Assembly: GCA_030372965.1 (NCBI GenBank)
Contig: JAUCQC010000289.1
Location: forward strand, 1 to 45,000
From: a bacterium
GTDB taxonomy: Bacteria; Zhuqueibacterota; QNDG01; DTFT01
Direction of reading: 5' to 3'
Length of the DNA: 45,000 nt
The notes under the pieces are model-generated. The model saw only the letters and a program-made list of their open reading frames with translations, was not told where the DNA came from and did no database searches. The position numbers and the translations under genes were made by a program. This document shows, in pieces, positions 3,102 to 43,870 of this stretch. Every line of letters starts with the position of its first letter. The stretch's first letter is position 1.

Positions 3102-3188
3102 CCGATTCGCTCCTTGTTCCTTGGGACGGTCCGGAGTCAAGGGGCGGAGATTTCCGTCCGCTCCCGCGACGCGTCCGTCTTCAGGCGG

Positions 3189-9027: not shown

Positions 9028-9336
9028 ATGGCCGTTTTGAGCCTGAATGCGGTCTGCCTGCCGTCAGAAGAAGTCGCCACCCGGGAGATCGAGGGGGAAG
9101 TCATTGTCGTACCGCTCTTCTCCGGTCCCGGCGGTGATGACGAGGAATTCTACAAATTGAACGACACGGCCCGGTCGATCTGGCTGAAACTGGACGGCCG
9201 GCGGACACTCTCTGAAGTGGCGTCGCTTGTGGCCGAGGAGTTCGACGTTCCCGTGCCGGAACTGCGGAACGACCTCATCGAATTCATCGCTGAAATGACC
9301 GGGCGCCGCCTGCTGACCGTCCGGGAGGCCGGTTGA
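9028..9336 (+). CDS. PqqD-family peptide chaperone (RiPP recognition element)
   Basis: A 102-residue PqqD-like winged-helix protein. These domains bind the leader of a ribosomally made peptide and present it to tailoring enzymes. The family pattern is present: a beta segment ending in the FYKLNDTARSIWLKLDG motif (residues 41-57), then RTLSEVASLVAEEFDVP and a C-terminal helix with MTGRRLL. A GGAGG site lies 9 bases before the ATG. It is the first gene of a compact set with an ABC exporter and an NTP_transf_5 protein, as seen in parts of lasso-peptide clusters. No B-protein protease, cyclase or radical SAM gene is directly adjacent, so the partner enzyme is missing or lies elsewhere. Confidence 0.88.
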   Translation: MAVLSLNAVCLPSEEVATREIEGEVIVVPLFSGPGGDDEEFYKLNDTARSIWLKLDGRRTLSEVASLVAEEFDVPVPELRNDLIEFIAEMTGRRLLTVREAG

Positions 9337-9506
9337 TTGATCCTCGATCTGAGACGGGTCGGCGCCCGGAGCGCCGGCTCTCCGATCAAAGGCCTTTGAC
9401 CGCCTATCAAAGCCGCCCGCTTCGCGGGCGCCGGTTTTCCCTGGCGGTCACTCCGGACCGCGAACCCAGCACCCGGTACTTCACCCCGTCTTTCCGAATC
9501 GGATGA
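9333..9506 (+). CDS. Possible 57-residue ORF bridging pqqD-like and ABC exporter genes
   Basis: A TTG at 9333 overlaps the PqqD stop (TTGA), and the reading frame runs to a TGA at 9504-9506 that overlaps the exporter ATG (ATGA). Both junctions are four-base overlaps typical of coupled genes, and the position is where a precursor peptide could sit. Against it: the start is TTG with no clear ribosome-binding site of its own, the product is Arg/Pro/Ser-rich, and part of it translates a GCCCGC...GCGGGC hairpin (9409-9430). It is as likely to be a chance open frame in GC-rich spacer DNA. Confidence 0.2.
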   Translation: MIDPRSETGRRPERRLSDQRPLTAYQSRPLRGRRFSLAVTPDREPSTRYFTPSFRIG

Positions 9507-11320
9507 CCCGAACCGAACCCACACGACTCCGCATCCGGCGCACCCTGCGCCTCGGCCGCGCGATCCGTCTGGTCTGGCAAACCGCGCGTGGATGGACGGC
9601 CGCCAACGCCTTACTGCTGGCCGTCCAGGGGTTCCTGCCGCTTCTCACCCTGTACCTGACGAAACTCATGATCGATTCCGTGGTGGCCGGAACCACGGCC
9701 CCGGACAAGTCCGCGGCTTTCGGCCGCGTGGCCTCGCTTCTCGCCTGGACCGGGCTGGTCGCCCTCGCGTCTGCCCTGGTCCGGTCCGCTTCGGACCTGA
9801 TCTCGGAGAACCAGGCCATGATCGTGACGGACCGGATCTCCGACATTCTGCATGAAAAATCCGTTGAAATCGATCTCGCCTATTACGAAAATCCCAAATA
9901 TTTCGACACCCTGCATCGCGCCCAGCAGGAGGCGCCGTCCCGGCCCACCCACATCGTGAACGGCCTCGCCCAGGTCGGCATGAACGGGCTTTCCCTGGCG
10001 GCCATGGCCGGACTGCTGGTCACCCTGCACTGGCTGGTCGCGATGGTCCTGTTCATCGCGGTGGTTCCGGGAATTTTTGTCCGGATGCGGTACTCCGGGA
10101 AACTGTACCGCTGGCAGAGGGAAAAGACCCAGACGGAACGGAAGTCCTGGTATTACCACTGGATGCTCACGGGCGATCAGCACGCCAAGGAAATCCGGCT
10201 GTTCGACCTGGGCGGCCTGTTCCGGGAACGCTTCCGCGGACTGCGGCGGATTCTCCGCGGGGAGAAGATGGGCCTTTCCCGGCGGCGCGCCATCGCGGAT
10301 CTCATCGCGCAGATCGGCTCCACGGCCGCCATATACGGTTCCTATGCCTTCATCACCTTCCGGACGGTCCGGGGGGACATCACCATCGGCGATCTGTTCA
10401 TGTACTTCCAGGCCTTTCAGCGCGGCCAGGGTTACCTGCAACAGCTTCTGGCCGGAATGGCCGGCCTGTATGAGGACAACCTGTTCCTCTCCAATTTCTA
10501 CGAGTTTCTGGACATCCGGCCGGGAATCCGGCCGCCGTCCAACCCCAGGTCTTTTCCAAAGCCGATTCAGACCGGCATCCGTTTCGATCATGTCGCTTTC
10601 AGCTATCCGGGAGGCGGAAGGAAGGTCTTCTCGGATCTGTCCCTGTCCATCGGCCCCGGCGAACATGTGGCCCTGGTGGGGAACAATGGGGCCGGAAAAA
10701 CAACCCTGATCAAACTCCTGTGCCGGCTGTACGATCCGGATCAGGGGGATATCCTGCTCGACGGCGCGCCCCTGCGGGAATACGATCCCGCGGCCCTGCG
10801 CAGGGAAATCAGCGTCATCCTGCAGGATTACAGCCGCTACCACGCGTCCGCGAGGGAGAACATCTGGTTCGGCGACGTAGCCATCGCCCGGGATGACGGC
10901 CGGATACTGGAAGCCGCGGCCAGGGCGGGCGCGGACAGCGTGCTCGATGGACTCCCGAAGGGAATCGACACCCTGCTCGGCAAGTGGTTCGAGGAAGGCG
11001 AGGAGCTGAGCATCGGGGAATGGCAGAAGCTGGCCCTGGCGCGAGCGTTCCTGCGGTCCGCGCAAATCCTCGTGCTCGACGAACCGACCAGCTCCCTGGA
11101 CGCGAAATCGGAGTACGAAGTGTTCCGCCGGTTCCGGGAGCTGGCGAAGGGCCGGACCGCCCTGCTCATCAGCCACAGGTTCTCCACGGTGCGCATGGCC
11201 GACCGGATCATGGTCATCGAGAAAGGGTCCATTCTGGAGAACGGCTCGCACGAGGAACTGATTCGGAAAGCCGGTACGTACGCGCAGATGTTCGAGGCGC
11301 AGGCGCGGAATTACCGGTGA
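9503..11320 (+). CDS. ABC exporter (fused membrane and ATPase domains), RiPP-cluster type
   Basis: A 605-residue half-transporter. Residues about 30-320 hold six membrane segments (for example ALLLAVQGFLPLLTLYLT and AAMAGLLVTLHWLVAMVLFI). Residues about 355-605 form the ATPase: Walker A VGNNGAGKTT (about 391-400), signature LSIGEWQKLALARAF (about 501-515), Walker B LVLDEPTSSLD (about 522-532) and switch His in ISHRFS. The GEWQ form of the signature is common in exporters of lasso peptides and other RiPPs. It would work as a homodimer exporting a modified peptide or lipid across the inner membrane. It follows pqqD by 166 bases, and the nucleotidyltransferase follows 12 bases later. Confidence 0.9.
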   Translation: MTRTEPTRLRIRRTLRLGRAIRLVWQTARGWTAANALLLAVQGFLPLLTLYLTKLMIDSVVAGTTAPDKSAAFGRVASLLAWTGLVALASALVRSASDLISENQAMIVTDRISDILHEKSVEIDLAYYENPKYFDTLHRAQQEAPSRPTHIVNGLAQVGMNGLSLAAMAGLLVTLHWLVAMVLFIAVVPGIFVRMRYSGKLYRWQREKTQTERKSWYYHWMLTGDQHAKEIRLFDLGGLFRERFRGLRRILRGEKMGLSRRRAIADLIAQIGSTAAIYGSYAFITFRTVRGDITIGDLFMYFQAFQRGQGYLQQLLAGMAGLYEDNLFLSNFYEFLDIRPGIRPPSNPRSFPKPIQTGIRFDHVAFSYPGGGRKVFSDLSLSIGPGEHVALVGNNGAGKTTLIKLLCRLYDPDQGDILLDGAPLREYDPAALRREISVILQDYSRYHASARENIWFGDVAIARDDGRILEAAARAGADSVLDGLPKGIDTLLGKWFEEGEELSIGEWQKLALARAFLRSAQILVLDEPTSSLDAKSEYEVFRRFRELAKGRTALLISHRFSTVRMADRIMVIEKGSILENGSHEELIRKAGTYAQMFEAQARNYR

Positions 11321-11332
11321 AGGAGCGCGGCC

Positions 11333-12625
11333 GTGCCGGATCCGAATCCTGAGCGCCGCCTGCCGGAGTGCATCGCCTGCCTGGCCTCCGCGGACGGAAA
11401 CCGGGTTCTCGGCCGCTGGTCCGAGCGCGACTGGCTGGGGTGCGTCGGCCAGGCGGAGCGCCACGGGCTGACCGCCTACCTGAACCGCAGGCTGAAGGAA
11501 GCGCGTCCGGCTGTCGCCGTGCCGGCCCCGGTTCAGGACAGACTGCGTCAGACCCTCCTGTCGGACGCGTCGAAGTCGATCCGCCTCTTTCATGGCATCT
11601 CCGGCACGCTCCGAGTCCTGAAGGCCGCCCGAGTGCAGGTCATCGTATTGAAAGGCGCGTACCTGGCGGAGGCCATTTACGGCGAAATCACGCTCAGGCC
11701 GATGGGCGACCTGGATCTGCTCCTGAGGCCGGACTCCATTCCCGCAGCGTCGGAACTCCTGCTCGGCTCGGGTTTCAGGCCGATGAACCCGTCCGCTTCC
11801 TCCTGGCGGGAATGGACCGCGGATGAGAAAAGGGATTTTCTCAGGGGCGCGAAACATTTTTTCGACCTGGTCCATCCCGGCTGGCGGCTGAAGGTGGATC
11901 TCCACGCGTCTCTGGTCCGGGCCAGCGACCCCTTCACGATCGACGCCGGCGCTCTCTGGGACCGTGCCGTGCCGGCGCGCATCGCGGATGAGGACGCGCT
12001 TGTCCTGTCGCCGGTCGACGCGCTGCTCCATCTCTGCCTTCACGCGTCCGTCGCCCACCGCTTCAGGTTCGGCCTGCGTCCGATCGTGGACATATCCGAA
12101 ACCCTCCGGCGCCACGCGGACACCCTTTCCTGGCAGGAAGTGACGGACCGCGCCCGTGAATGGGGCGCGGAAAGGAGCGTCTGGCTGTCCCTGTCACTGT
12201 GCCGGGAGCTTCTGTCGGCGCGGGTTCCCGACTCGGTCCTGAGCGCGCTGGAGCCCCGGATTCCTCATCCCGAATACCGGGATCTCGCGGTTCGAAACAT
12301 CCTCCAACCCGGTCCGGCGCCGCAGGTTCTCCCGGATGACTTCGTCCGATCGTGGAGCGCGGAACGCTTTCGCGACCGGATATCCGCGGTGGCCCGGTCC
12401 CTGTTCCCGCCGGCCCGCGTCATGGCCCTGATGTACCCGGCTTCTCCCGATTCGTGGAGGATCATTCTCTATTATCCGGTTCGCTGGCGGGATGTCTTCT
12501 CCCGGTGGGGGAGGACCTGCTGGGATCTTCTGATGAGGAAAAAAGAGGCATCGGAACGCATGCGGAAAGAAAAGACTGAAGTCGCGTTCACGGACTGGCT
12601 GAAAACGAGGGAATCGCCGCGATAG
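11333..12625 (+). CDS. NTP_transf_5-family nucleotidyltransferase
   Basis: A 430-residue cytosolic protein of the uncharacterised nucleotidyltransferase family (Pfam NTP_transf_5). The core is VIVLKGAYLAEAIYG (residues 103-117) followed by LRPMGDLDLLL (121-131), where Asp126 and Asp128 are the metal-binding pair of the polymerase-beta fold. Relatives accompany RiPP clusters, including lasso-peptide clusters with phosphorylated products, and some capsule loci. The target is unknown. The GTG start has an AAGGAG site (11320-11325) overlapping the exporter stop, so the two are coupled. The long helical C-terminal half (about residues 230-430) matches the usual family length. Confidence 0.82.
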   Translation: MPDPNPERRLPECIACLASADGNRVLGRWSERDWLGCVGQAERHGLTAYLNRRLKEARPAVAVPAPVQDRLRQTLLSDASKSIRLFHGISGTLRVLKAARVQVIVLKGAYLAEAIYGEITLRPMGDLDLLLRPDSIPAASELLLGSGFRPMNPSASSWREWTADEKRDFLRGAKHFFDLVHPGWRLKVDLHASLVRASDPFTIDAGALWDRAVPARIADEDALVLSPVDALLHLCLHASVAHRFRFGLRPIVDISETLRRHADTLSWQEVTDRAREWGAERSVWLSLSLCRELLSARVPDSVLSALEPRIPHPEYRDLAVRNILQPGPAPQVLPDDFVRSWSAERFRDRISAVARSLFPPARVMALMYPASPDSWRIILYYPVRWRDVFSRWGRTCWDLLMRKKEASERMRKEKTEVAFTDWLKTRESPR

Positions 12626-12742: not shown

Positions 12743-13141
12743 ATGAGCCCGATGAATGCGGAATCGCGTGAGACCCGCAAGCCCAAACGCTATTGCAAGA
12801 CGCTGGAGTTGAAAAACGACCCTGAGCTGATTCAGGAGTACATCAACGCCCACGCGCCGGAGGCCTGCTGGCCGGAGATCGCGGAAGGCATGCGCGAAGT
12901 CGGCATACTCGACATGCAGATTTACCGTGACGGCACGCGGCTGTTCATGATCATGGACACGGTTCCGGATTTTGATCATGACCGGGCCATGGCCGACCTG
13001 GCGGGAAAACCGAGGCAGGCGGAATGGGAAGAGCGGATGTCCCGTTTCCAGGCCGCGTCGGCCGGGGCCACGGCCGGGGAAAAATGGAGACTGATGGATC
13101 GAATCTACAACATGGAAGATTCCGCGGGATCCGCCCGATGA
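12743..13141 (+). CDS. L-rhamnose/L-fucose-type mutarotase (DUF718)
   Basis: A 132-residue member of the L-rhamnose mutarotase family, which interconverts alpha and beta anomers of 6-deoxy-L-sugars. Visible family features are RYCKTLELKNDPELIQEYINAH near the N-terminus (containing the Tyr and His of the active site), the MREVGILDMQIYRDGTRLF strand-helix and the C-terminal KWRLMDRIYNMED segment. It lies just upstream of lacI and the receptor/GH95 locus, so L-fucose or L-rhamnose released there is a sensible substrate. A GGGAGGT site (12730-12736) precedes the ATG. The 117-base gap from the nucleotidyltransferase suggests a separate transcript, though no clear promoter is seen. Confidence 0.88.
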   Translation: MSPMNAESRETRKPKRYCKTLELKNDPELIQEYINAHAPEACWPEIAEGMREVGILDMQIYRDGTRLFMIMDTVPDFDHDRAMADLAGKPRQAEWEERMSRFQAASAGATAGEKWRLMDRIYNMEDSAGSAR

Positions 13142-13183
13142 AGCGTGACACGCCAGTTTTCCGTCACGGCATCGAGAAACCGC

Positions 13184-13212
13184 TTGACATTGGCGAATAA
13201 ATGGAGTAAAAT
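13184..13212 (+). promoter_or_regulatory. Strong predicted lacI-family gene promoter
   Basis: -35 TTGACA (13184-13189, perfect consensus), 17-base spacer, -10 TAAAAT (13207-13212). Transcription should start near 13219, directly before the operator-like dyad. Confidence 0.85.
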
Positions 13213-13223
13213 GAGCTTAATAA

Positions 13224-13239
13224 ACTTACACGAGTAAGT
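13224..13239. promoter_or_regulatory. Operator-like dyad for the LacI-family regulator
   Basis: ACTTACAC|GAGTAAGT: seven of eight positions are symmetric about a central CG step, as in LacI-family operators. It begins 12 bases after the -10 box and reaches to two bases before the start codon. Repressor bound here would block transcription and cover the ribosome-binding region. A related site lies at 14290-14305. Confidence 0.7.
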
Positions 13240-13241
13240 CA

Positions 13242-14276
13242 ATGCCCATCATCAATCAATCCGAGATTGCCCGGAAACTGAAAGTCAGCCGCGCCACGGT
13301 TTCCAAGGCGCTCAAGGGCGATTCGGATATTTCGGACGACATGAAACAGCGCGTCCATGACCTCGCTGAAAAACTGAACTACATTCCGCATTATCACGCC
13401 CGGGGGCTTCATTCCCGAAAATCCATGACGATCGGCGTCGTCGTTCCGGACATCTCTAACTCATTCTTCTCCTACGCGGTCGACGGAATCATGGACGCGG
13501 CGGACCGTTCCGGGTATCATGTGATTCTGGCCGTTTCCCGCGAGAAAAGCGAGATCGAGAGAAAAAACATCCTCAATCTGCTTTCCATGCGGGTCGACGG
13601 ACTGCTCATCGCGGTTTCGAAGGAAACGCCGGATGCCGCCATCTACCACAAAGTGAAGATTTCGGATGTCCCGTTGATTTTTTTCGACCGGATTCTGGAG
13701 GAGCAGGGTTCGGGATTTGTCGGAATCGACGACCGGGGCGCGGCGAAAAAACTCGTCGATTTCGTGATCCGGTGCGGATACCGGAAAATCGGCCATCTCG
13801 CCGGGTCTTCCCATGTTCGGATCGGCCGCGACCGTCTCGAGGGGTATCTGGATTCCCTGAAGGATCATGGGTTGCCGATCCGGAAAGAATGGATCGCGGA
13901 GGGGGGCTTCGAAAGAAAGGACGGGATCGCCGGATTCGGGAAGGTCTGGACGGGCCGGGAAAAACCCGAAGTCCTCTTCGCCGCGAACGATCAAATCGCA
14001 CTCGGCGCGTATGACGCCATCCGCGAAAGGGGATTGAAGATACCGGAGGACGTCGGGATTGTCGCCTTCGGCCACCACGATTTCGCCCAGATCCCGTCCC
14101 CCTCCATGACCATCATCAATGTCGATCCCTATTTGCTCGGATTGGAGGCGATGGAGATGATGCTGAAATTCATCCGCGGAGAGAAGGGATTCAAAACCAC
14201 GGTCCGGATCGATTCGGAGATCGAGATCGGGGAATCGATCCGGGTGCCGGAAAATGGCGGATTCCGGAGGATTTGA
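13242..14276 (+). CDS. LacI-family transcriptional regulator
   Basis: A 344-residue LacI/GalR repressor. Residues 4-25 form the helix-turn-helix (SEIARKLKVSRATVSKAL), the hinge is LNYIPHYHARGL, and residues about 62-335 form the periplasmic-binding-protein-like effector domain (IGVVVPDISNSFFSYAVDG, then FVGIDDRG, then EVLFAANDQIALGAYDAIRERG). The ligand is unknown but should be a sugar or oligosaccharide of the adjacent locus. Promoter and operator overlap its own start, pointing to autorepression; there is no good Shine-Dalgarno because the dyad takes that space. The receptor gene begins 91 bases downstream on the same strand and has a similar dyad in its leader. Confidence 0.95.
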   Translation: MPIINQSEIARKLKVSRATVSKALKGDSDISDDMKQRVHDLAEKLNYIPHYHARGLHSRKSMTIGVVVPDISNSFFSYAVDGIMDAADRSGYHVILAVSREKSEIERKNILNLLSMRVDGLLIAVSKETPDAAIYHKVKISDVPLIFFDRILEEQGSGFVGIDDRGAAKKLVDFVIRCGYRKIGHLAGSSHVRIGRDRLEGYLDSLKDHGLPIRKEWIAEGGFERKDGIAGFGKVWTGREKPEVLFAANDQIALGAYDAIRERGLKIPEDVGIVAFGHHDFAQIPSPSMTIINVDPYLLGLEAMEMMLKFIRGEKGFKTTVRIDSEIEIGESIRVPENGGFRRI

Positions 14277-14289
14277 TTTTTAATCCTGG

Positions 14290-14305
14290 GCTTAATCGAT
14301 AAAGT
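14290..14305. promoter_or_regulatory. Second LacI-type operator candidate before the TonB receptor
   Basis: GCTTAATC|GATAAAGT is symmetric at six of eight positions about a central CG and shares 11 of 16 bases with the dyad at 13224-13239, including the outer CTTA and AAGT words. It lies 62 bases before the receptor ATG. Confidence 0.5.
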
Positions 14306-14367
14306 AGGCCTTTTTACGGGCCCGCAGCCCGGCGCACTCAAAGCGGAATAGGGAAGAAGGAGGAAGC

Positions 14368-17106
14368 ATGCGCGGAAGAAACCGGTGTCGTGTCCTTTCT
14401 CTGGCGGCGGCTGTCCTGTTCATCGGATCCGCCCTGGGGCAAACGTCGGGCAAAATCGGGGGCGTCATCATCGACAAGGCCACCCGGGAGCCGCTGATCG
14501 GCGCGAACGTCATGCTGGTGGGAACGGCGATCGGCACGGTCGCCGATCTTCAGGGGAATTACTACATCATCAATGTTTCGCCCGGCACCTACGCGGTTCA
14601 GGCGAACATGATCGGCTACCGGCCGATCCGGATGGAGCATGTCCGCGTCAGTGTCAATGCCACGACCACGCTCAGGTTCGAGATGGAGAAGACCGTCCTT
14701 CAGGGTGAACCCGTTGTCGTGACGGCGAGCGCCGTGTCCTTCAAGAAGGACCAGACCAGCTCGATCCGGAACGTATCGGCCGATCAGATGGCCCGTCTTC
14801 CCGTGGAGAACGTCGATCAGGTGGTGAACATGCAGGCGGGTATCGTCGCTGGCCATTTCCGGGGCGGAAGGACCAGCGAATCCGCTTTTATGATCGACGG
14901 CCTTCAGGTCGTCAACTCCTTCAGCGAGTACTCGCGCCAGAGCGTGTATGTCGAGAAGGAGACCGTGCAGGACCTGGAGGTGATCAAGGGCACGTTCGAC
15001 GCCGAATACGGCCGCGCGATGAGCGGCATGGTCAACGCCGTCACCAAGGACGGCGGCAACGCCTGGCGCATGCAGGTGTCGGGCGGATTCAGCAATTTTC
15101 TCACGTCGCACGACGACATTTTCATCGGACTCGGCAGCTCGGGCGCATTATCCCGGAATCTGAGCCGCGATTACAAGGCCCAGATCGAGGGCCCCATACT
15201 GAAGGACCGGCTGAGCTTTTTTGTCAACTACCGGAAGCAGGACAACCGCGGCCCGATCAACGGCATCCGGCGGTTCAATCCGTGGGATTACAGCGTGTAC
15301 CCGTCGAACGATCCCGCGTCCTGGCATATCGAGCATACCGGCGACAACAGATACGTGGCGATGCAGCGGGATTTCTACGACAATCTGCTCGCGAAGCTGA
15401 CGTTGAAACCGTTCTCCAACTTCAAGGTGAACCTGCTCTACACATTCAACGGGAGCAAGAGCCGGCAGTATGATTTCGCCTACAAGTACAACCCGGACGG
15501 CCTGGGATGGAATTTCGGGGACGTCCGGCTCGGTACCGCGGATGTGAACCACATGCTGTCCCGTTCGCTGTATTATAACCTGAAACTGTCCTACAGCGAC
15601 CGCCGCGAGGAATCCTACCTGTACGAAAATCCGCTGGATCCGCGCTATATCAGTCCGAATTACCACGGAAGCCGGGAAACCGGGTTCTACACCGGCGGGA
15701 TGGCGGACCCCGGCAAGCGGATGGACGCGTTCCTGAGGGGGGACGCCAAATTCGACCTGTACTGGCAGGCCAACCGGAACCATGGATTCAAGACCGGCTT
15801 TCTGTACACCTCGCACGTGGTGGACCGGGACCGGATTGACGTGAGGAACCTGTACGACGGCTTGCCCGAAGCGAACGACATGGCGGTGGACTGGGAAACC
15901 GGCAAGATCACATTCCCGAACTACATTCCTGAAATCATTCCCGTCACCGAAAATACGGTCGGCATCTATCGCGTCAAACCTCGTGAAATGTCCGCCTACC
16001 TCCAGGATAAGATGGAATTCGAGGAGATGGTCATCAAGCTGGGGCTGCGGTACGATTATTTCAACGCCAATTTTCACTATCCGTCCAATTTCAGGAATCC
16101 CGGGAACCAGCTCTCGCTTCCCGATTCCATGATGTCGACTTATCCCGCGAACACCCCCCGGACGCAGTTCAGCCCCCGGCTGGGACTGTCGTACAAGCTG
16201 AGCGACCAGGCGGTGCTCCGGTTCAGCTACGGACATTTCTTCCAAATGCCGCAGATGTACGCCCTGTTCGAAGACAACATTTTCCGCGTCTCCCCGTTCA
16301 ATTACCAGACCACCATGGGCAATTCCCAGCTCAAGGCGGAAAAAACGGTCCAGTACGAGCTCGGAATCTGGCAGCAGCTCATGCCCGGCATGGGTCTCGA
16401 AGTGTCCGTGTACTACAAGGACATCTACAACCTGCTCAGCACCAAGGTCATGACCACGTACAATCAGATCCGGTACGGCCTCTTCACCAACAAGGATTAC
16501 GGCAACGCGCGCGGCATCGAGCTCAGCTGGGATTACGTGACGGGGCGGGTGTCTTCCATCGTCAACTTCACGTACGCCTTCACCCGGGGCGTCGCGGACA
16601 ACCCGCGCGAGACGTTCACCCGGGCGGGTAACAGCATGGATCCGATTTCGCGCCTGATCCCCATGTCCTGGGATCAGCTGTACACGGCGAACGCGACCAT
16701 CGCCTATTCCGCGCGGAATTTCGACGTGGCGCTGACCGGATACCTCAACTCGGGAACGCCGTATTCATACGCGCCTCCCGGATACAGCCCGCTGTACAGA
16801 ATCAATCTCTATCAGAACAATTCGAAAAAACCCGTGAGCACGTCATTCGATCTCTCGGCGGGCTACACGGTGCCGCTTTTCGGACGGCACAGCCTGAGGC
16901 TGACGCTCAACGCGTACAACCTGTTCGACCGGCTGAACGCCGCCTGGGTGTACAGCGACACGGGGGATCCCGGTTCCACCATCGTGACCGAAGGGGACCT
17001 GCTGAATCACCGCAGTGACTTCAACGATTATTACGACCGGATCAATAATCCGACCGCGTATTCGTATCCCCGGTCCGTCAAGCTGACCGTGGGATACGGT
17101 TTCTGA
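14368..17106 (+). CDS. TonB-dependent receptor with carboxypeptidase-regulatory-like N-terminal domain
   Basis: A 912-residue outer-membrane receptor of the Oar/SusC-like type. A signal peptide (residues 1-25, cleaved near GSALGQ) is followed by a CarboxypepD_reg-like domain (about 27-110: GGVIIDKATREPLIGANVML, then TYAVQANMIGYRP). Next come the plug (about 120-240, with MIDGLQVVN and DLEVIKGTFDAEYGRAMSG) and a beta barrel ending in VKLTVGYGF with a terminal Phe. It should import a ligand using TonB energy. An AGGAGG site precedes the ATG. It follows the LacI gene and precedes the large secreted protein by 62 bases. No SusD-like lipoprotein is encoded beside it, so it is not a classical Sus pair. 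Ligand inferred from context only: a fucose- or rhamnose-containing glycan. Confidence 0.93.
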   Translation: MRGRNRCRVLSLAAAVLFIGSALGQTSGKIGGVIIDKATREPLIGANVMLVGTAIGTVADLQGNYYIINVSPGTYAVQANMIGYRPIRMEHVRVSVNATTTLRFEMEKTVLQGEPVVVTASAVSFKKDQTSSIRNVSADQMARLPVENVDQVVNMQAGIVAGHFRGGRTSESAFMIDGLQVVNSFSEYSRQSVYVEKETVQDLEVIKGTFDAEYGRAMSGMVNAVTKDGGNAWRMQVSGGFSNFLTSHDDIFIGLGSSGALSRNLSRDYKAQIEGPILKDRLSFFVNYRKQDNRGPINGIRRFNPWDYSVYPSNDPASWHIEHTGDNRYVAMQRDFYDNLLAKLTLKPFSNFKVNLLYTFNGSKSRQYDFAYKYNPDGLGWNFGDVRLGTADVNHMLSRSLYYNLKLSYSDRREESYLYENPLDPRYISPNYHGSRETGFYTGGMADPGKRMDAFLRGDAKFDLYWQANRNHGFKTGFLYTSHVVDRDRIDVRNLYDGLPEANDMAVDWETGKITFPNYIPEIIPVTENTVGIYRVKPREMSAYLQDKMEFEEMVIKLGLRYDYFNANFHYPSNFRNPGNQLSLPDSMMSTYPANTPRTQFSPRLGLSYKLSDQAVLRFSYGHFFQMPQMYALFEDNIFRVSPFNYQTTMGNSQLKAEKTVQYELGIWQQLMPGMGLEVSVYYKDIYNLLSTKVMTTYNQIRYGLFTNKDYGNARGIELSWDYVTGRVSSIVNFTYAFTRGVADNPRETFTRAGNSMDPISRLIPMSWDQLYTANATIAYSARNFDVALTGYLNSGTPYSYAPPGYSPLYRINLYQNNSKKPVSTSFDLSAGYTVPLFGRHSLRLTLNAYNLFDRLNAAWVYSDTGDPGSTIVTEGDLLNHRSDFNDYYDRINNPTAYSYPRSVKLTVGYGF

Positions 17107-17168
17107 ACCGGCAGGCTCCGATCCATCCGCCTGTGGATGAACGAACTCCAATTCAGGAGAGAATCGGC

Positions 17169-20100
17169 ATGAAAATACAGACTGGAATTCTCGCGGCGTG
17201 TCTCGGTGGGGTGTTGTGCGCATCGGTAGCCTGGGCCCAGGGAAGGCCGTACACGGGTCCCGAGGACCCGGCGGGGGACATATCGGCAATCCGATCCGGA
17301 ACCATGAACATGAACCGCCTCCTGCTGTACTTTGAAAACAACACGCAGATCGCGGACTATCCGGCGACCGGAACGAGCCGGTGGCCGAACGATTACACGG
17401 GACAGCGGATGATCGATGTCGCGTCCATTCTGGTCGGAAGCGAGGTGGTCGTCTACCAGGATTCAATTCCGATCGACCGGCTGGATGATCCCCGCCTGCT
17501 TGAAACCGGTTCCCTCGATACCCTGTACATGGTGGAATCGCATTCCTACCCGGACGACAAACCCGACCTGAACTACGACGGAACCGTCGAGTGGGGAATC
17601 TACCCGGTGCCCGGGTACGCCAATCCGTCCCAGGACTACGCGGCCATGAGCAACAAACCCGAATCCTGGCCGCCGGAAGGGTGGCCGTTGACCGGCTTCA
17701 CCAAGGTATGGCCCGGGGAATGGAACGGCCGTTTCGGCCGGGGCGTCATGAAGGCGGCGCTCGAATCCTACTTCGTCGCGAACGACGCGCAGGACATGGA
17801 ACACATCATCCAGCGCAACGACCCGGAGCAGAAGCTGATCACCCTCGGACCGAGATACCTGCCGCGTCCGGGGCGCGTCATCGGCGACATCGACCCCTAC
17901 GTGACGATCCAGAAAGGGCTTCCATGGGGCGGACTCGGCCTGCGCTACGAGGTGAGGGGATACCAATGGGCCAACAACGAGGCGCAGGACATCGTTTTCT
18001 GGGAATACAACGTTTCAAATATTTCGGATTACGATTTGCCGAAAAGCGGCTTCGGCTATTATGTGGACAACAGCATCGGCGGTGACGCCAGCGGTGAGAA
18101 CGAGGTCGGCTTCCGGGATAAAATTCTCGATCTCGCGTACGTCTGGGAAAGACTGGGGCAGGGCGAGGGCGGTAGGATTCCCGGTGTCATGGGGTACGCC
18201 TATCTGGAGAGCCCCGGCAAGGCCTTCGACGGCGAGGACAACGACGACGACGGAGTCATCGACGAGAGCCGGGACAATCCCGCCGGGCAGTGGGTCGCCG
18301 CGGAGATGGGACCGGGCGGGCGCCTGATCGACGTGGATAAGTTCCGCGCTTTCAACCACCAGGAGCCCCAGCCCCACTGGGAGGGGGACGAGGACCAGGA
18401 CTGGCAGGACGGCATGGACCCCGATCATGACGGCTCCTATGCCGACCGGACCGAAAGCGGAGAATGGGTGCTGGAACTCGGGGCGTTCTGCGGAGACGAT
18501 GTCGGCGTGGACGGCGTCGGTCCGGGTGATCTGAACTACCACGGTCCGGACGCGGACGGGAGCGAATGCAATCACAAGCCGGATTTCATCGACGTCAAGG
18601 GCGAACCCAATTTCGGACCGCTCGACGTCAGCGAATCCGACATGATCGGACTGACCAGTTTCCTGCTGTTCGACTGGGCCCAGTGGCAGAACACCCTCCG
18701 GTTGACCCTGAACGAGGACATGAATGTCTGGAACGTGATGAATTCGGATTCACTGAGCAATTACCTGGTCGCCGGCTCCGTCGGATCCATCTACATGATC
18801 TTCGCGTCCTCGCCGTTTCCGCTCTACAAGGGCCGGACGGAACGGGTGTCCATGGCCTTCATGGCGGCTTATGAAAACCTGGCCACGCTGAACGCCAAGG
18901 CGCACCGGGCGGAGAACCTGTTCCGGCTCAAGGAGGTGGCCCAGATCATCTACGACCACGATTATCAGTTCGCGCAGCCGCCGCTCATGCCCACACTCAA
19001 GGCCGCGGCCGGGGACGGCAAGGTCGTCCTCACCTGGGATGACATATCGGACACCAAGACCCGCGAACCGCTCCTGCAGAACGCCAACGATTTCGAGGGC
19101 TACAAGCTGTACAAGTCGACGGACAAGTTCATGTCGGACGCAAGGGTCATCACCGACGGAAAGGGAACGAAGAAATACCGGGCGCCCTTGTTTCAATGCG
19201 ACAAGGTCGACACCATCAAGGGCTACAGCAATCTCGGGGGAACGATGGACGGGCACCTCGTGTATCTCGGCGACGACACGGGCATCCGCCATTATTTCAT
19301 CGACACCGACGTGCAGAACGGCCGGACCTATTATTACGCGCTGGTGGCCTACGATTACGGCGTCGAGGACCTGGACATCGCGCCGGCCGAGAGCGGCGTG
19401 GACATCGAGCTGGACGAAGCCGAAAACGTGATCCGGATCGGACAGAACGTGCAGGTCGTGAAGCCGGGGCAGCAGGCGGCCGGCTACGTGCCTCCCGAAA
19501 TCGCGATCGACGAGGCCAACACGAGCGAACGGCTCCTGGGCGGATCGATCGTGCCGGCCGTCGTCGATTCGAAAGAGATCCTTCCCGGCCATTCGTACCG
19601 GATCCGGTTCAGCACGTCCAAAATCGGCAACTACGCCCTCTCCAAAACGCGGCGCGCGACCCGGGACGGCAAAATCGTGACTTCGGGGATGCGGATCGAA
19701 GACATCACCGAATCGCCGGTCACCGTCTATCAGGAGGACTCCGCGAAGGGATTCGCCGAATCCAATCTTCAATATGATCCGGACCTGAAAATCTGGCGCC
19801 TGCAGGCTGGATCCGCCATCACCACGGATGTCTTCGAAGGGATCCATTGCCGGATATCGGTTCCGGCCGACTCGGTGTTCATCGACCGCGATCCCGGGAA
19901 GACCGGATGGATTCAGGGGACGGCGCCGATCCGCGTCCAGGCGGGTCCCGCTCTGCCCTTTTTCCCCTTCCAGTACGAGATTGTTTTCGATCCGGATATG
20001 GAATACCAGTCCATCACGAACCGCACGAGCGGAATCTACGACGTGGACGGGTCGCTGGTGTCCAACCGGAAAAGAGGCATCGGACTGCGTTATCCGTTCA

Positions 20101-20744
20101 CCGTGGTCAACACCGCGGTGCCGCCCGACAGCGCCGGAAACCTCGAAAAACTGGACCTGGTTCTGTTTGACGCGAACGAGAATCAGGTGTTCGACTGGGA
20201 TTCCGATCGAATCCTCGTGGGATACGCGGCCAAGGACAAGGACAATTACTGGTGGGGCGGGACGATCTTTTCGATCGATTTTCAATACGCCGGAGTCAAC
20301 GAAAATCCGACCGCGCCCGGCGACCGGTACCGCGTGAGCGTGAACACACCGCTCACGGAGAACGATTCCTTCGTCTTCTCCGTGCGGCCCGAAGTCGAGC
20401 TGAACACCGCCCGGCTGGCCTCCGCCATGGATTCCATCAAGGTCGTGCCGAATCCCTACATTTCCACGAACCTCATGGAAACGGCCGTCGCGAACAAATA
20501 TCTGAACCAGAGGCGGCAGATCATGTTCACGCATGTCCCGGCCGACTGCGTCATCCGCGTCTACACGCCGTCGGGCGTGCTGGTCGACAGGATCGACGTG
20601 GACAACGGGCCGGAAGACGGCACGGTGCACTGGAACCTGGTGTCCCGCGAAGGGCTGGAAATCGCCGCCGGGATGTACATCTATCACGTTCACTCCAACG
20701 CCACCGGCCGGGACAAGGTCGGCAAGTTCGCGGTCATCAAGTGA
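17169..20744 (+). CDS. Large secreted protein with FN3-like and type IX-like C-terminal domains
   Basis: A 1191-residue protein of no family I can name. Start at 17169 is preferred over an in-frame ATG at 17133 because AGGAGA lies just upstream and it begins directly with a signal peptide (MKIQTGILAACLGGVLCASV, cleaved near AWAQG). Near residue 355-370 is a Ca-binding-type acidic loop (DNDDDGVIDES), and residues 395-490 are very Asp/Gly/Trp-rich. An FN3-like stretch begins near 605 (APPLMPTLKAAAGDGKVVLTW in part). The last 110 residues (VVPNPYI, then GVLVDRIDVDNG, then GMYIYHV, then KVGKFAVIK) resemble FlgD-Ig/type IX-secretion sorting tails. It sits between the receptor and the PorV-like gene, so it is probably surface-exposed and may take the SusD role; that is inference. 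Confidence 0.8.
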   Translation: MKIQTGILAACLGGVLCASVAWAQGRPYTGPEDPAGDISAIRSGTMNMNRLLLYFENNTQIADYPATGTSRWPNDYTGQRMIDVASILVGSEVVVYQDSIPIDRLDDPRLLETGSLDTLYMVESHSYPDDKPDLNYDGTVEWGIYPVPGYANPSQDYAAMSNKPESWPPEGWPLTGFTKVWPGEWNGRFGRGVMKAALESYFVANDAQDMEHIIQRNDPEQKLITLGPRYLPRPGRVIGDIDPYVTIQKGLPWGGLGLRYEVRGYQWANNEAQDIVFWEYNVSNISDYDLPKSGFGYYVDNSIGGDASGENEVGFRDKILDLAYVWERLGQGEGGRIPGVMGYAYLESPGKAFDGEDNDDDGVIDESRDNPAGQWVAAEMGPGGRLIDVDKFRAFNHQEPQPHWEGDEDQDWQDGMDPDHDGSYADRTESGEWVLELGAFCGDDVGVDGVGPGDLNYHGPDADGSECNHKPDFIDVKGEPNFGPLDVSESDMIGLTSFLLFDWAQWQNTLRLTLNEDMNVWNVMNSDSLSNYLVAGSVGSIYMIFASSPFPLYKGRTERVSMAFMAAYENLATLNAKAHRAENLFRLKEVAQIIYDHDYQFAQPPLMPTLKAAAGDGKVVLTWDDISDTKTREPLLQNANDFEGYKLYKSTDKFMSDARVITDGKGTKKYRAPLFQCDKVDTIKGYSNLGGTMDGHLVYLGDDTGIRHYFIDTDVQNGRTYYYALVAYDYGVEDLDIAPAESGVDIELDEAENVIRIGQNVQVVKPGQQAAGYVPPEIAIDEANTSERLLGGSIVPAVVDSKEILPGHSYRIRFSTSKIGNYALSKTRRATRDGKIVTSGMRIEDITESPVTVYQEDSAKGFAESNLQYDPDLKIWRLQAGSAITTDVFEGIHCRISVPADSVFIDRDPGKTGWIQGTAPIRVQAGPALPFFPFQYEIVFDPDMEYQSITNRTSGIYDVDGSLVSNRKRGIGLRYPFTVVNTAVPPDSAGNLEKLDLVLFDANENQVFDWDSDRILVGYAAKDKDNYWWGGTIFSIDFQYAGVNENPTAPGDRYRVSVNTPLTENDSFVFSVRPEVELNTARLASAMDSIKVVPNPYISTNLMETAVANKYLNQRRQIMFTHVPADCVIRVYTPSGVLVDRIDVDNGPEDGTVHWNLVSREGLEIAAGMYIYHVHSNATGRDKVGKFAVIK

Positions 20745-20790
20745 CGGATCCGTCGACCCTCTCACGTTCCGACAACACAGGAGATCGATC

Positions 20791-21849
20791 ATGAAGACAC
20801 TTCAAGCCGCGGCGATACTGGCGACGGTGCTCCTGGGCGTCCTTCCCGTGATGGGACAGTCCAAGCCCTACCGTGTGGGAACGACCACCGCCAATTTCCT
20901 GGAAATCGGCGCCGAAAGCGCGGGTTCCGCCATGGGAGAGGCCTATGTCAGCGTCGCCCGCGACCTGTCGGCGCTTTACTGGAATCCGGCCGGCCTTTCC
21001 TTCATGAACCGGAACGAGATCCAGTTCGCCTACCAGCCGTGGATCATCGACATCCAGTTCAGCCATGCGGCCGCGGCCTTCGTTCTGCCGTCTTTCGGCA
21101 CGTTCGCCCTGTCGTTCACCGGCATGAGCTACGGAAACACGCCCGTCACGACGCTCGAGATGCAGGAGGGCACGGGCGAGACATTTTCGGCCATGGACAT
21201 CGCCGCGAGTTTGTCCTACGCGAGGAAACTCGCACAATGGTTCGGATTCGGCGCCACGTTCAAGTACGTGACTTCCGGCATCTGGCACATGCGCGCCAAC
21301 GCGGCGGCTCTGGACATGGGGCTCCTCATCAACACCGGCTTCTTCTCGCCGGATGAGGCCCGGGAAAACGGGCTCGCCATCGGCATGAGCATTTCCAATT
21401 ACGGAACCAAAATGCGGTTTGACGGCATGGACCTGCTCCAGCCGATCGATATCTCGGAGGACGAGGGGAACTACAAGGACGTGGAAGGCCAGTTCCGCCT
21501 CCAGTCCTGGGAGCTGCCCCTCATCTTCAGGGTCGGGGCTTCCATGCTTCCCTTCAAGACGACCCACCATCAGCTCTGCGTGGCGGCGGACGCGCTGCAC
21601 GCCAACAACAACAGCGAATCGGTGAACGTCGGCGGGGAATACCGGATCCTCATTCCGGGGCGGGTCGCGCTCTGCCTCAGGAGCGGATATCGGGGACTTT
21701 TTATGGACCGCAGCGAATACGGCTGGACGTACGGCGGGGGAATCCACTGGGCCCTCATGAACAACCGCGCGCTGAAGATCGACTACGCCCTCAAGTCGAC
21801 CGGGATTCTGGGCGACTACTCCATGTTTACGGTCGGCGCTTCCTTCTAG
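20791..21849 (+). CDS. PorV/UPF0164-family outer-membrane protein
   Basis: A 352-residue FadL-like beta-barrel protein. A signal peptide ([20 protein letters not shown], cleaved after VMGQ) is followed by the family start [20 protein letters not shown] and [15 protein letters not shown], which is diagnostic of PorV/PorQ-type proteins. The barrel ends FTVGASF with a terminal Phe. In Bacteroidota, PorV is the type IX secretion shuttle that takes cargo from the translocon. Here it lies 46 bases behind a protein with a type IX-like tail, which suggests dedicated secretion or anchoring of that cargo. The ATG at 20791 follows AGGAG by 8 bases. A related fragment lies at 41-224. Confidence 0.88.
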
Positions 21850-21913
21850 CGCCGCGCCGGTTTTCGGATTGATTTCACCGTTGGAACCGGAATACTCCGA
21901 AGGGGAGTGCCAC

Positions 21914-24397
21914 ATGAAAAGGCGGATTCTCGCGACCGTGATCCCTCTTCTGATGTCGACTGCGGCCTCAGCGGGCGCGGACGGGACCACGGCGCCGTTC
22001 ACGCTGTGGTACGACAAGCCGGCACGCGCCTGGACCGAGGCGCTGCCGCTGGGAAACGGGCGCCTGGGCGCGATGGTTTTCGGGATTCCCTGGCGCGAGC
22101 GCATCCAGCTGAACGAAGGCACGGTCTGGGCAGGGGGTCCCTACCGCAATGACAATCCGGACGCGCTCCAGGCGCTTCCGGAAGTCCGCCGCCTGATTTT
22201 CAGCGGAGATCCCGGCGCCGCGCAGGCTCTGGCCGACGAAAAAATGGTCTCGAAAATCGCCCACGGCATGCCGTATCAGACCGTCGGGGACCTGGTTCTG
22301 TCCTTTCCCGGGCATGAGCGGGCGTCGGATTACAGGCGTGAACTCGATCTCGAACGGGCGGTCGCGACCACGCGCTACCGGGTGGGGGAGGTGACCTTCC
22401 GGCGCGAAGTGTTCGCATCCTTCGCGGATCAGGTCATCTTTGTCCGAATCACCGCGGACCGGCCCGGGCAGTTGAATTTCGCGGTCTCCATGGACAGGCC
22501 CGCGGCCTTTCATGTGGCGACCGAGGGTCCTGATCGGATCGTGCTGTCCGGAACGACCGGTGACTGTGAGGGCGTTCAGGGGAGGGTCCGGTTCGCAGCC
22601 GCGGCGCGGGTCGTATCCGGAAACGGCGTCACAGACGCGGTCGATGGGGCGATTTTTGTCCGGCATGCGGATTCCGCCCTGATCCTCGTGTCCATCGCCT
22701 CCAGCTTCATCCGGTACGATGACATCAGCGGCGATCCGCAGCGGAGAGCCGGGGAACGGCTCGTCCGGTCCGCGGAAAGGGATTACGCAGCCGCTCTCGA
22801 AGATCATATCGCGGCCTATCGCCGTTATTTCGGACGGGTTCGCTTGAATCTCGGCGTCACGGATTCCGCGCGGAATCCCACCGACGTCCGCATCGAACGG
22901 TTCGGCCGGGGGAACGATCCGCACCTGGCGGCTCTCCTGTTTCAATTCGGCCGCTATCTCCTGATCAGTTCCTCGCAGCCCGGGGGACAGCCCGCGACGC
23001 TGCAGGGGCTCTGGAACGAGCAGCTTTACCCGCCCTGGGACAGCAAATACACGGTCAACATCAACACGGAGATGAATTACTGGCCCGCCGAAACCGCGGG
23101 GCTCCCCGAAATGGCCGAGCCCCTGATCCAGATGGTCCGCGAGCTTTCGGAGACGGGACGGCAGACGGCGAAAAACATGTACGGCGTCGACGGGTGGGTC
23201 GCGCATCACAACACCGATCTGTGGCGCATCACCGGCCCGGTGGACGGGGCGTTCTGGGGGATGTGGCCGTGCGGCGGGGCCTGGCTCTGCCAGCACCTCT
23301 GGCAGAAATACCTGTACAGCGGGGACATCGCCTATCTGCGCTCGGTATACCCGATCCTGAAGGGGGCGGCCCAGTTCTATCTGGGATTTCTCACGGAGGA
23401 ACCCTCGAATCAATGGCTGGTCGTCTGCCCCTCCGTTTCCCCGGAGAACGCCCCTTCCATCCACCCGCAATATTCGATCACGGCCGGAGCGACCCTCGAC
23501 AACCAGCTTGTTTTCGATCTCCTGACGGCGACAGCCCGCTCCGCCCGTCTGCTGAAAACCGATCCGGCGTTTATCCGGGATGTCGAATCCGCCCTGCGGA
23601 GACTGCCGCCCATGCAGATCGGCCGGCACGGACAGCTCCAGGAATGGCTCGAGGACTGGGACAATCCGGAGGACCATCATCGTCATGTTTCGCATCTGTA
23701 CGGCGTTTTTCCGGGGAACCAGATCTCACCCTTCCGGACGCCCGAACTGTTCGAAGCGGCCCGAACGTCCCTGCTGCATCGGGGGGACCCTTCCACGGGC
23801 TGGTCGATGAACTGGAAAATCAACCTGTGGGCGCACTTTCTGGACGGCGATCATGCGTACAAGCTCATTCTCGAACAGATCAAGCCCGTGAACCGGAGGG
23901 TCGGCGGCGGATTCGCCGAATCGGGGGGAACCTACCCGAACCTGTTCGACGCGCATCCGCCGTTCCAGATCGACGGAAATTTCGGTTTCACGTCGGGTGT
24001 CGCGGAGATGCTGCTTCAGAGCGACGACGGAGCCGTTCACGTCCTCCCGGCCCTCCCGGGCGCCTGGAAAGACGGAAGCGTGAGCGGTTTGCGCGCGCGC
24101 GGCGGTTTCGAAATCGCGTCGATGGAGTGGAAAGAGGGGAAAATCATCCGCTTGAGCGTCCGATCCGCGCTCGGCGGCAACTGCCGGATCCGTTCCGGCA
24201 CGCCGTTGAAGGGCGGTCCGGGAACCCGGCTGAAAGCCGCCCGGGGCGGGAATCCGAATCCCCTGTACTGGATTCCGGAGGGAAAGCGTCCCCTGATTTC
24301 CAAAGACGCCCGAATCGAACCCCATCCCGCGCCGGAAGGGTACCTGTACGACATTGAAACGGCGCCCGGCCGGACCTATGATTTTACCGCGATTTGA
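21914..24397 (+). CDS. GH95-family alpha-L-fucosidase (possibly alpha-L-galactosidase)
   Basis: An 827-residue inverting glycosidase with a signal peptide ([20 protein letters not shown]). Domain order fits GH95: N-terminal beta-sandwich ([26 protein letters not shown]), helical linker, (alpha/alpha)6 barrel and C-terminal beta domain. By analogy with Bifidobacterium AfcA, the acid is Glu511 (SVSPEN), and the base system is Asn382/Asn384 ([12 protein letters not shown]) with Asp687 (FQIDGNFG). It would release L-fucose (or L-galactose) from glycan non-reducing ends in the periplasm or outside. The ATG at 21914 starts directly at the signal peptide. It follows the PorV-like gene by 64 bases and is the only catabolic hydrolase of the locus. 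Confidence 0.92.
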
Positions 24398-24501: not shown

Positions 24502-26019
24502 ATGATGTCCATTCGTAGAAACGCCGTGTTCCTGACCATGGCTGTCCTGGTCTCCCTGCAGTGCGGGAAGAAGCGCCCGGACGACGGCATTCTCGCGGTC
24601 ATCGGAGACCGGGTCATCACGCGCGATGAATTCATCCGCAGAGCCGAGTACACCGTCCGGCCCCCCTATTGCAGGGGAGACTCGCCTCAGGCGAGGAGCA
24701 TTGTCCTGAATTCGCTCGTCGCTGAGAAACTGTACGCGCTGGAGGCCGGGGAACGGAACGCGCTGGCCGCCAGTCCGGCTTTTCAGAGCCTGATCCTGGG
24801 CAGAAAAGAGCAGTCCATGAGACTGCACCTGCTGGAAGCGGTCACGAAGGGAAAAACGGCGCCGGACAATTCCGAACTTCGAAGCCGCGCCAGCGTCGCG
24901 GGCCGGGAATACCGGCTGAGCTTTTTTACCGTTCCCCGGGAACGGATCGGCGTCCTGAAGGATTGGGGCGCGGCCGCGGCGCGGTCGGCATCCTTCGATG
25001 AACTGCACAGGAGGACCGGAGGATTGGGGCCGCCCCCGCGCAAGGTCGTTTCCTGGAAATCGCCGGAGCCGCCGGCGGTCCACCAGGCCCTGTTCTCGGG
25101 TCCGCTCCTGAAAGACCAGGTGGTCGGTCCGGTCGACGTCGGCGAAGACGGGTATCTTATGATGCGGATTCTCGGATGGCTTGACCGGCCCGCCGTTTCC
25201 GATCAGGAAATCCGGGAACGCCGCGAGGCCGTCCGGCGGAGAATGGAGGAAGAGAAAAAGCAGGCCGTCTGGGATGCCTATGTGTTCGGGCTGATGAAAG
25301 GCAAAAGACTCGAGTTTCAGCGGGAGCCGTTCGAGAAAATGGCGGAGCTCATGAGAACGCTCCAGCTGCCGGACCGGAAACCGCAGGACGCGTTGTCCCT
25401 CGGGGGAATGACGAACGACGGCATGGCCGCGCGCCGGACCGCGGATTCGATTCTCTCGGAAATCCGTTCGAACCGGATGGAAGGCCGGCCCTTCTTCACG
25501 TTCGACGGAAGAACCTGGACCGTGTCCGATTTTCTCAAATTGACCGCCTCCCACCCCCTGGTCTTCAGGAAAAGAAGGATGGGGCCCGGCGAATTCCCCG
25601 GCCAGTTCAAGCTGGCTGTCGCGGATCTGCTGAGAGACGCGGTCCTCAATCGGGAAGCCTATGACCGGGGGTTGGACCGGCTTCCCGCGGTTCAGCGGGA
25701 GACGGCGATGTGGCGCGACGCGCTCCTGGCCGCTTATCATCGGCACCGCGTCCTGAGCGCCAGGGGAACGGCCGCCGATCGGGCCGCCGGCGGGGATCGG
25801 GACCCGGACCGTCTCCTGGGGGCCTACACCGACAGCCTGTTCAAGGCCTACAACGGCAGGATCGGAATCAACGTCGGCCTGCTCGAGAGCATTCGCCTGA
25901 CCCGCATCGACATGGTTGCGTTGAACCGCGATCTTCCCTATATTGAAACGGTTCCGGTTTTCCCCGCGGTCACGTCCAGACCGCGTCTGGATTACGGAAA
26001 AAGGCTTGATCGACCCTGA
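24502..26019 (+). CDS. SurA-N-like secreted protein, putative lipoprotein
   Basis: A 505-residue envelope protein. A hydrophobic leader (residues 1-21) ends in SLQC, which is not a perfect lipobox (Gln before the Cys), so lipidation at Cys22 is plausible but unsure. The segment DGILAVIGDRVITRDEFIRRAEY (in part) is the usual beginning of SurA/PpiC chaperone N-domains. A long helical, basic/acidic body follows, with FTFDGRTWTVSDFLKL repeating that motif style in the middle. No parvulin (PPIase) active-site block is visible, so it is probably a periplasmic chaperone rather than an isomerase. Tandem ATGs at 24502 and 24505 follow GAGGTG; either could be used. It lies 105 bases behind GH95 and may be part of that transcript. 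Confidence 0.65.
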   Translation: MMSIRRNAVFLTMAVLVSLQCGKKRPDDGILAVIGDRVITRDEFIRRAEYTVRPPYCRGDSPQARSIVLNSLVAEKLYALEAGERNALAASPAFQSLILGRKEQSMRLHLLEAVTKGKTAPDNSELRSRASVAGREYRLSFFTVPRERIGVLKDWGAAAARSASFDELHRRTGGLGPPPRKVVSWKSPEPPAVHQALFSGPLLKDQVVGPVDVGEDGYLMMRILGWLDRPAVSDQEIRERREAVRRRMEEEKKQAVWDAYVFGLMKGKRLEFQREPFEKMAELMRTLQLPDRKPQDALSLGGMTNDGMAARRTADSILSEIRSNRMEGRPFFTFDGRTWTVSDFLKLTASHPLVFRKRRMGPGEFPGQFKLAVADLLRDAVLNREAYDRGLDRLPAVQRETAMWRDALLAAYHRHRVLSARGTAADRAAGGDRDPDRLLGAYTDSLFKAYNGRIGINVGLLESIRLTRIDMVALNRDLPYIETVPVFPAVTSRPRLDYGKRLDRP

Positions 26020-42143: not shown

Positions 42144-43692
<1,549 letters not shown>

Positions 43693-43794
43693 CTAAGGAG
43701 TACAGGTTATGGACGCCGCAAGCGGACCATAACGTACTTCAAGGTCGAAAGCGCCGATACTTCGAGCCGTGCACGCGTCGTTTATATAAATATC

Positions 43795-43870
<76 letters not shown>

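Follow-up and report, generated by a model that had tools for sequence, protein, structure and literature searches.

The window analysed here is a stretch of 45,000 nucleotides from a bacterium of the phylum Zhuqueibacterota (contig JAUCQC010000289.1). It contains a triplet of genes that encode a TonB receptor, a secreted protein of 1191 residues (positions 17169–20744, labelled SEC in this report) and an outer-membrane barrel of the PorV/PorQ family. With a probability of about 0.6, the triplet encodes a recurrent oligosaccharide uptake complex, in which the TonB receptor is combined with a SEC protein that is delivered by type IX secretion, anchored by the barrel and placed where SusD would otherwise be. 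The complex appears to be an alternative to the SusCD glycan importer that has not been described so far.

The triplet in related genomes

In the window genome, contigs C289 (the window), C159, C124, C280, C8, C144 and C298 carry SEC or a relative of it with a TonB receptor on one side and a PorV-family barrel on the other. On contigs C34 and C148 the contig end leaves room for the start of a PorV gene alone. About nine copies of the triplet are present in this genome, and those on C8, C144 and C298 are strongly diverged. The initial annotation of the window had suspected such a repetition because a further PorV-like gene lies at the edge of the contig. This gene is real, and the window holds the C-terminal end of its barrel.

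Relatives of SEC were found in 57 of the 59 genomes of the phylum and in 45 of the 46 that are at least 90% complete. The 79 named SEC loci belong to KSB1, Calditrichota, Fidelibacterota (Neomarinimicrobiota, SAR406) and Ignavibacteriota. The closest named relatives of the window locus have identities of 70–90% and include metagenome-assembled genomes (MAGs) of KSB1. Three typical triplets (L034, L058 and L092) are found in a MAG titled Caldisericaceae (JAGHBR01), the bin or name of which is probably wrong.

Flanking genes were counted for SEC genes with room on both sides, a TonB gene being required upstream and a PorV gene adjacent on the same strand. This arrangement is present in 116 of 123 loci (62/68 named loci, 4/4 loci of the window genome and 50/51 divergent paralogues), which rules out chance adjacency of the three genes. 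Co-occurrence in other genomes, on which the initial annotation had staked its proposal beforehand, is thus established. Most of the exceptions involve SEC genes in tandem (L048, L055) or a barrel gene at a distance of a few genes (L042). The alternative order TonB-PorV-SEC occurs in L037, L055, L075 and L097. In L145 and L174, two whole triplets follow each other head to tail, and the entire unit appears to have undergone a recent local duplication. At another locus (L093, 1228–8624) the TonB frame is split into two open reading frames and the SEC frame into three, by either decay or sequencing errors.

The three proteins have been inherited together. For 113 complete triplets, path lengths in the protein trees correlate with coefficients of 0.97 (TonB-SEC), 0.88 (SEC-PorV) and 0.90 (TonB-PorV). 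As a control, partners were swapped only within the same genome, which keeps the species relationship, in 1000 trials per pair. The shuffled maxima (0.94, 0.85 and 0.86, respectively) all lie below the observed values.

Structure and C-terminal domain of SEC

SEC has no match to a Pfam family. Its signal peptide ends ahead of a conserved glutamine, and the mature protein starts at Gln24. A lipobox is present in just two of 104 family members. Since the other 102 lack it, some other anchor is needed.

An AlphaFold2 model of SEC was calculated with 111 diverse relatives as input (predicted local distance difference test, pLDDT, 91.3; predicted template modelling score, pTM, 0.83). An earlier model from 12 sequences (pLDDT 44) was set aside. 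The mature part of the model is mostly β, with 36% strand and 9% helix. SEC is predicted to be a long array of β domains, in which Fn3/Ig-like sandwiches are followed by a type IX C-terminal domain (about residues 1090–1191). Among the 50 Foldseek matches listed for the model, PorZ is first and PorU fifth, and SusD is not among them. The whole-model TM-scores are low (0.05–0.17) and mostly mirror arrays of β-sandwiches, and the shared features are therefore best judged by profiles of the tail. Matches to glycoside hydrolase (GH) families GH116 and GH94 (probability 0.96–0.99, TM-score 0.14–0.17) came without residue ranges and were hence not used. They might reflect a sandwich resembling those of sugar enzymes in part of the SEC model, and no conclusion is built on them.

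Sequence searches of solved structures with SEC matched only relatives of the tail. The tail of the window SEC scores 19.9 bits on the PorZ model and 14.9 bits on TIGR04183, the general type A model; both values are weak and below the curated cut-offs. In the family the signal is widespread. Matches to the PorZ, PorU and TIGR04183 models were obtained for 37, 34 and 33 of 40 tails, respectively, and a profile built from SEC tails retrieves PorU (6za2) and PorZ (5m11). The type IX-like tail noticed in the initial annotation is thus real, although weak in the window member. Judged by these profiles, the C-terminal domain of SEC most resembles those of PorU and PorZ.

SEC also contains acidic stretches near residues 354–370, 407–425 and 444–491 (DGEDNDDDGVIDE, DEDQDWQDGMD). 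Their Asp residues are invariant across the 111 relatives, down to 30% identity. These stretches are a candidate calcium or ligand site.

The barrel and the type IX machinery

The barrel passes the PorV/PorQ family model (NF033709, 193.9 bits versus a cut-off of 90) and stays under both equivalog cut-offs (PorV, 83.6 versus 250 bits; PorQ, 81.3 versus 220 bits). Compared with solved structures, it matches PorV (PDB entry 6h3i, E = 8e-8). There is also a weak match to Toluene_X. The translocon protein SprA was found in 30 of 30 relatives searched and the sortase PorU in 20 of 20, in each case including the window genome (SprA on contig C126, PorU on contig C102). As judged by these homologues, the host carries a type IX translocon and sortase.

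Two kinds of partnership with barrels are known for type IX substrates. PorV acts as a shuttle for type A substrates (PMC12618676, PMC5562754), while type B substrates have a PorP/SprF barrel dedicated to their export and anchoring, the gene of which often follows theirs directly (PMC9143113, PMC12618676). The tails of PorU and PorZ of P. gingivalis remain uncleaved and are anchored by PorV and PorQ (PMC5562754), and it has been suggested in a review that cognate PorV-like barrels may shield tails from cleavage (PMC10202324). The tail of SEC is closest to these retained PorU and PorZ tails. Therefore, the barrel is probably a lasting, dedicated anchor of SEC rather than a passing shuttle. A PorV-type shuttle that delivers a surface binder to the receptor had been proposed initially; the dedicated PorV-family partner of this proposal stands, and its shuttle role is less probable than that of an anchor.

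Comparison with SusD

No protein of the locus matches any SusD family in Pfam, in agreement with the initial annotation. In the window genome (85% complete) and a genus mate there is no match to PF07980 (SusD_RagB), the sole SusD family searched genome-wide; matches to it are present in 22 of the 59 relatives. SusD has an α-helical fold of the tetratricopeptide repeat type. The possibility that SEC is a disguised SusD is ruled out by the lack of a family match together with the mostly-β predicted fold. With the SusC model TIGR04056, the TonB receptor reaches 70 bits of the 368.25 required by the cut-off. The module would act like SusCD and yet is no member of that group, because the features tested (a SusD partner, the SusD fold, a lipoprotein partner and a score above the SusC cut-off) are all absent.

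A chaperone-like lipoprotein

The conserved unit reaches beyond position 24397, up to the gene of a SurA/PrsA-like lipoprotein. Homologues of this lipoprotein are present in 46 of the 79 named loci. Within five genes downstream of SEC, relatives are found in 40 of 66 near-clade loci with room and in 11 of 49 divergent ones. The window protein alone has no Pfam match. SurA_N_2 is found in 15 of 54 downstream genes, and the family profile retrieves PrsA with E = 1.7e-5. Most members retain a lipobox-like cysteine. Furthermore, PPIC rotamases are common neighbours of divergent triplet copies. These weak but consistent matches point to a chaperone of the SurA/PrsA type. On the basis of its homologues at related loci, the lipoprotein is a further member of the module, which the initial annotation had missed.

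Gene organisation and regulation

The genes of the locus and the operator candidates are listed in Table 1. Gene calls and family matches confirm the gene order of the initial annotation (mutarotase, LacI, TonB receptor, SEC, PorV-like barrel, GH95), with all genes on the forward strand. The presence of a mutarotase is likewise confirmed, its type being refined to L-rhamnose. In the GH95 gene, the catalytic, N-terminal and C-terminal domains (PF22124, PF14498 and PF21307) all score above their cut-offs.

Table 1. Features of the locus in the window (positions 1 to 45,000)
Feature	Position	Strand	Support
C-terminal end of a further PorV-family barrel	about 34–160	+	31.5 bits to a profile built here; cut by the contig end
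RhaM-type (L-rhamnose) mutarotase	12743–13141	+	PF05336, 96.7 bits
Likely LacI operator, palindrome ACTTACACGAGTAAGT	13224–13239		Follows a promoter-like pair and precedes the start of lacI
LacI-family regulator	13242–14276	+	PF00356, PF00532
Possible second, weaker LacI operator GCTTAATCGATAAAGT	14290–14305		Before the TonB gene; weak match in the window
TonB receptor with CarboxypepD-like N-terminal domain	14368–17106	+	PF13715 (CarboxypepD_reg_2), PF07715 (Plug), PF00593 (barrel, 111.5 bits)
SEC, secreted, type I signal peptide	17169 (ATG)–20744 (stop)	+	1191 residues
PorV/PorQ-family outer-membrane barrel	20791 (ATG)–21849 (stop)	+	NF033709, 193.9 bits
GH95 glycoside hydrolase (α-L-fucosidase/α-L-galactosidase family)	21914 (ATG)–24397 (stop)	+	PF22124, 592 bits
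SurA/PrsA-like lipoprotein	24502–26019	+	Homologues at related loci, family profile

The gaps between the genes of the TonB receptor, SEC, the barrel, GH95 and the lipoprotein are short (62, 46, 64 and 104 bases from stop to next start). Thus, the five genes probably form one operon. The palindrome ahead of lacI is preceded by the promoter-like pair TTGACA-17-TAAAAT. With up to two mismatches, 0.13 chance occurrences of it are expected in the window. An identical palindrome precedes lacI in three relatives (L021, L022 and L023). The copy proximal to the TonB gene has a better counterpart at the same place in L021, and L022 has two copies. The sequence ACTTACNCGAGTAAGT is the candidate LacI target. 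As the palindrome is kept before lacI in these three relatives and before the TonB gene in L021 and L022, LacI probably controls its own gene and the operon.

Several other gene groups surround the locus. An operon for L-arabinose breakdown is located on the opposite strand, 7 kb from the triplet (1626–5581). It encodes an isomerase with an L-fucose isomerase C-terminal domain, an AraD-type L-ribulose-5-phosphate epimerase and an L-ribulokinase. Its assignment to fucose breakdown was considered and ruled out, since the kinase and the epimerase are L-ribulokinase and AraD. A small PqqD-like open reading frame (recognised by eye), an ATP-binding cassette (ABC) exporter and a PF14907 nucleotidyltransferase follow each other on the forward strand (9028–12625) and are accompanied by a B12-type radical S-adenosylmethionine gene (6698–8152). 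By their families, these genes look like part of a peptide-modification cluster for ribosomally synthesised and post-translationally modified peptides. An rRNA operon is present at 42144–45000 on the forward strand, with 16S rRNA, tRNA-Ile, tRNA-Ala and the start of 23S rRNA.

Carbohydrate context

By its gene content (uptake genes, carbohydrate-active enzymes and a sugar-type regulator), the locus is a polysaccharide utilisation locus in the wide sense. Elsewhere, the triplet is associated with various carbohydrate genes. Downstream of near-clade triplets, GH16 is found in 30 of 63 cases, along with GH3, GH30, GH5 and malectin domains. As far as these families indicate, this is a β-glucan signature, with GH16 as the commonest link to sugars. 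Upstream genes of the near clade encode a carbohydrate-binding module of family 9 (CBM9) in 25 of 47 cases and a type IX tail in 30 of 47. Neighbours of the divergent copies include solute-binding proteins of the sugar ABC type (14/78), permeases (seven) and GH94 (five), as well as GH53, ROK and glucoamylase-like proteins. Next to copies of the window genome there are GH3, a protein of the SMP-30/gluconolactonase family and a two-component regulator of the hybrid type, in which Y_Y_Y, kinase and AraC parts are combined. A link of the triplet to different carbohydrate genes, as anticipated in the initial annotation, is thus borne out by GH16, GH3, GH94, CBM9 and sugar ABC genes. Its emphasis on GH95 and fucose applies to the window locus, where the GH95 gene is indeed present, and does not extend to a general theme. 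This genus is the only one in which GH95 is an immediate neighbour of the triplet, and fucose is therefore a local guess.

Proposed mechanism and alternatives

We infer that SEC is exported, is anchored by the barrel, contacts the receptor and binds glycan. The TonB receptor would be the energised pore. SEC would cross the outer membrane via the type IX translocon SprA and would retain its C-terminal domain, by which its own PorV/PorQ-family barrel would hold it at the surface, as in PorU-PorV and PorZ-PorQ. Placed over or beside the receptor, SEC would capture or gate the glycan and so replace the lipid-anchored SusD. The SurA/PrsA-like lipoprotein probably acts as a periplasmic chaperone of SEC or the barrels. 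LacI would control the operon via the conserved palindrome, and in the window copy the GH95 enzyme would trim the glycan.

Several points weigh against such an uptake complex. No recognised carbohydrate-binding domain is present in SEC. Its relatives' tails also match the general model of type A tails, which are cleaved in known systems. In L048 (SEC-SEC-SEC-PorV) and L055 (TonB-PorV-SEC-SEC-SEC), three SEC genes are accompanied by a single barrel. Hence, one-to-one pairing is not strict, and one barrel may serve several surface proteins. Block inheritance of linked genes alone yields agreement between trees, so that the correlations demonstrate a unit and nothing more. Finally, some divergent copies are located near M28 or M20 peptidases. 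Therefore, not every copy need carry sugars, and other nutrients may be carried.

The same data were weighed against other explanations. SEC could be an independent surface glycan-binding protein or adhesin, anchored by the barrel and merely co-regulated with the TonB receptor without a joint complex. Its long array of β domains would suit this role, and surface glycan-binding proteins that stand beside receptors without forming a pore lid are known from polysaccharide utilisation loci. This explanation is nevertheless unlikely. The genes of SEC and the receptor are neighbours at almost every locus, the agreement between their trees is the tightest of the three pairs (0.97), and no other candidate for a lid, such as SusD, is encoded. 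A somewhat smaller chance is given to the barrel as a private shuttle outside the uptake complex. It would collect SEC at the translocon, hand it over to the PorU sortase and be recycled after cleavage of the tail, with SEC either released or attached to lipopolysaccharide. In line with this, the PorU sortase was found in all 20 relatives searched, and PorV shuttles type A substrates (PMC12618676, PMC5562754). However, the described systems use one general PorV for all type A substrates, whereas here there is one barrel per SEC locus; the dedicated barrels SprF, PorP and PorQ were found bound to their partners (PMC9143113, PMC5562754), and SEC tails are closest to retained tails.

Two further explanations were weighed. 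SEC, the barrel and the SurA-like lipoprotein might build or insert the TonB receptor and have no part in nutrient handling. The model for this would be BamG and BamH: the former is a FadL-type barrel, and the latter, its extracellular partner, is bound by it and forms an arch over BamA (PMC12578637). A chaperone-like gene is indeed part of the module. This role is very improbable, since a single copy per genome would be expected of a biogenesis factor, and not a diversified partner that co-varies with each receptor. The least credible explanation is that the barrel is itself a FadL-like pore for part of the substrate, alongside the TonB route. PorV belongs to the FadL superfamily, and the weak Toluene_X match would fit; but PorV/PorQ is the best family of the barrel, the neighbouring SEC bears the matching type IX tail, and we know of no PorV/PorQ-family transporter with a pore role. 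An uptake complex of the TonB receptor and a barrel-anchored SEC is thus preferred.

Relation to known systems

The closest functional parallel is SusCD in the polysaccharide utilisation loci of Bacteroidota. In both, the TonB receptor has a CarboxypepD-like domain at its N terminus and is followed by a large surface partner, and both are accompanied by carbohydrate-active enzymes, inner-membrane sugar importers and sugar-responsive regulators in many diversified copies per genome. In contrast, the present module has no SusD. Its partner is mostly β, non-lipidated and type IX-tailed, its receptor is far under the SusC cut-off, and a PorV-type barrel and often a SurA-like lipoprotein are added.

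PorU-PorV and PorZ-PorQ likewise combine a PorV/PorQ-family barrel with a secreted protein, the C-terminal domain of which belongs to the family found in SEC. Those pairs are single parts of the secretion machine, whereas the present pair exists in many copies, in association with TonB receptors and sugar genes. Type B pairs (SprB-SprF, PG1035-PorP) share the dedicated barrel encoded directly downstream of the secreted partner, which needs it for export and anchoring (PMC12618676, PMC9143113). Unlike in these pairs, the tail is of the PorU/PorZ/type A kind, the barrel is of the PorV/PorQ kind and a TonB receptor belongs to the unit. The β-barrel assembly machinery of Bacteroidota (BamA-BamG-BamH) also has two neighbouring barrels, with the FadL-type one binding a large extracellular protein. 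There, however, BamH is a lipoprotein and the complex inserts outer-membrane proteins. Searches of the openly accessible literature yielded no account of the triplet; closed journals and preprints were outside their scope.

The chances are about even that the module is a second general strategy for the TonB-linked capture of glycans, with an extracellular partner delivered by type IX secretion, a private PorV-type barrel as tether instead of a lipid and many copies per genome in KSB1, Calditrichota, Fidelibacterota (SAR406) and Ignavibacteriota, the window genome at least having no recognisable SusD. If so, poorly cultured and widespread groups, including the marine SAR406 (Fidelibacterota), would import glycans by a machine that has been overlooked because annotation looks for SusD. 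In these phyla, sugar-uptake loci could then be recognised by the triplet, a role would be assigned to some of the largest hypothetical surface proteins, and type IX secretion would be used beyond enzyme export and gliding.

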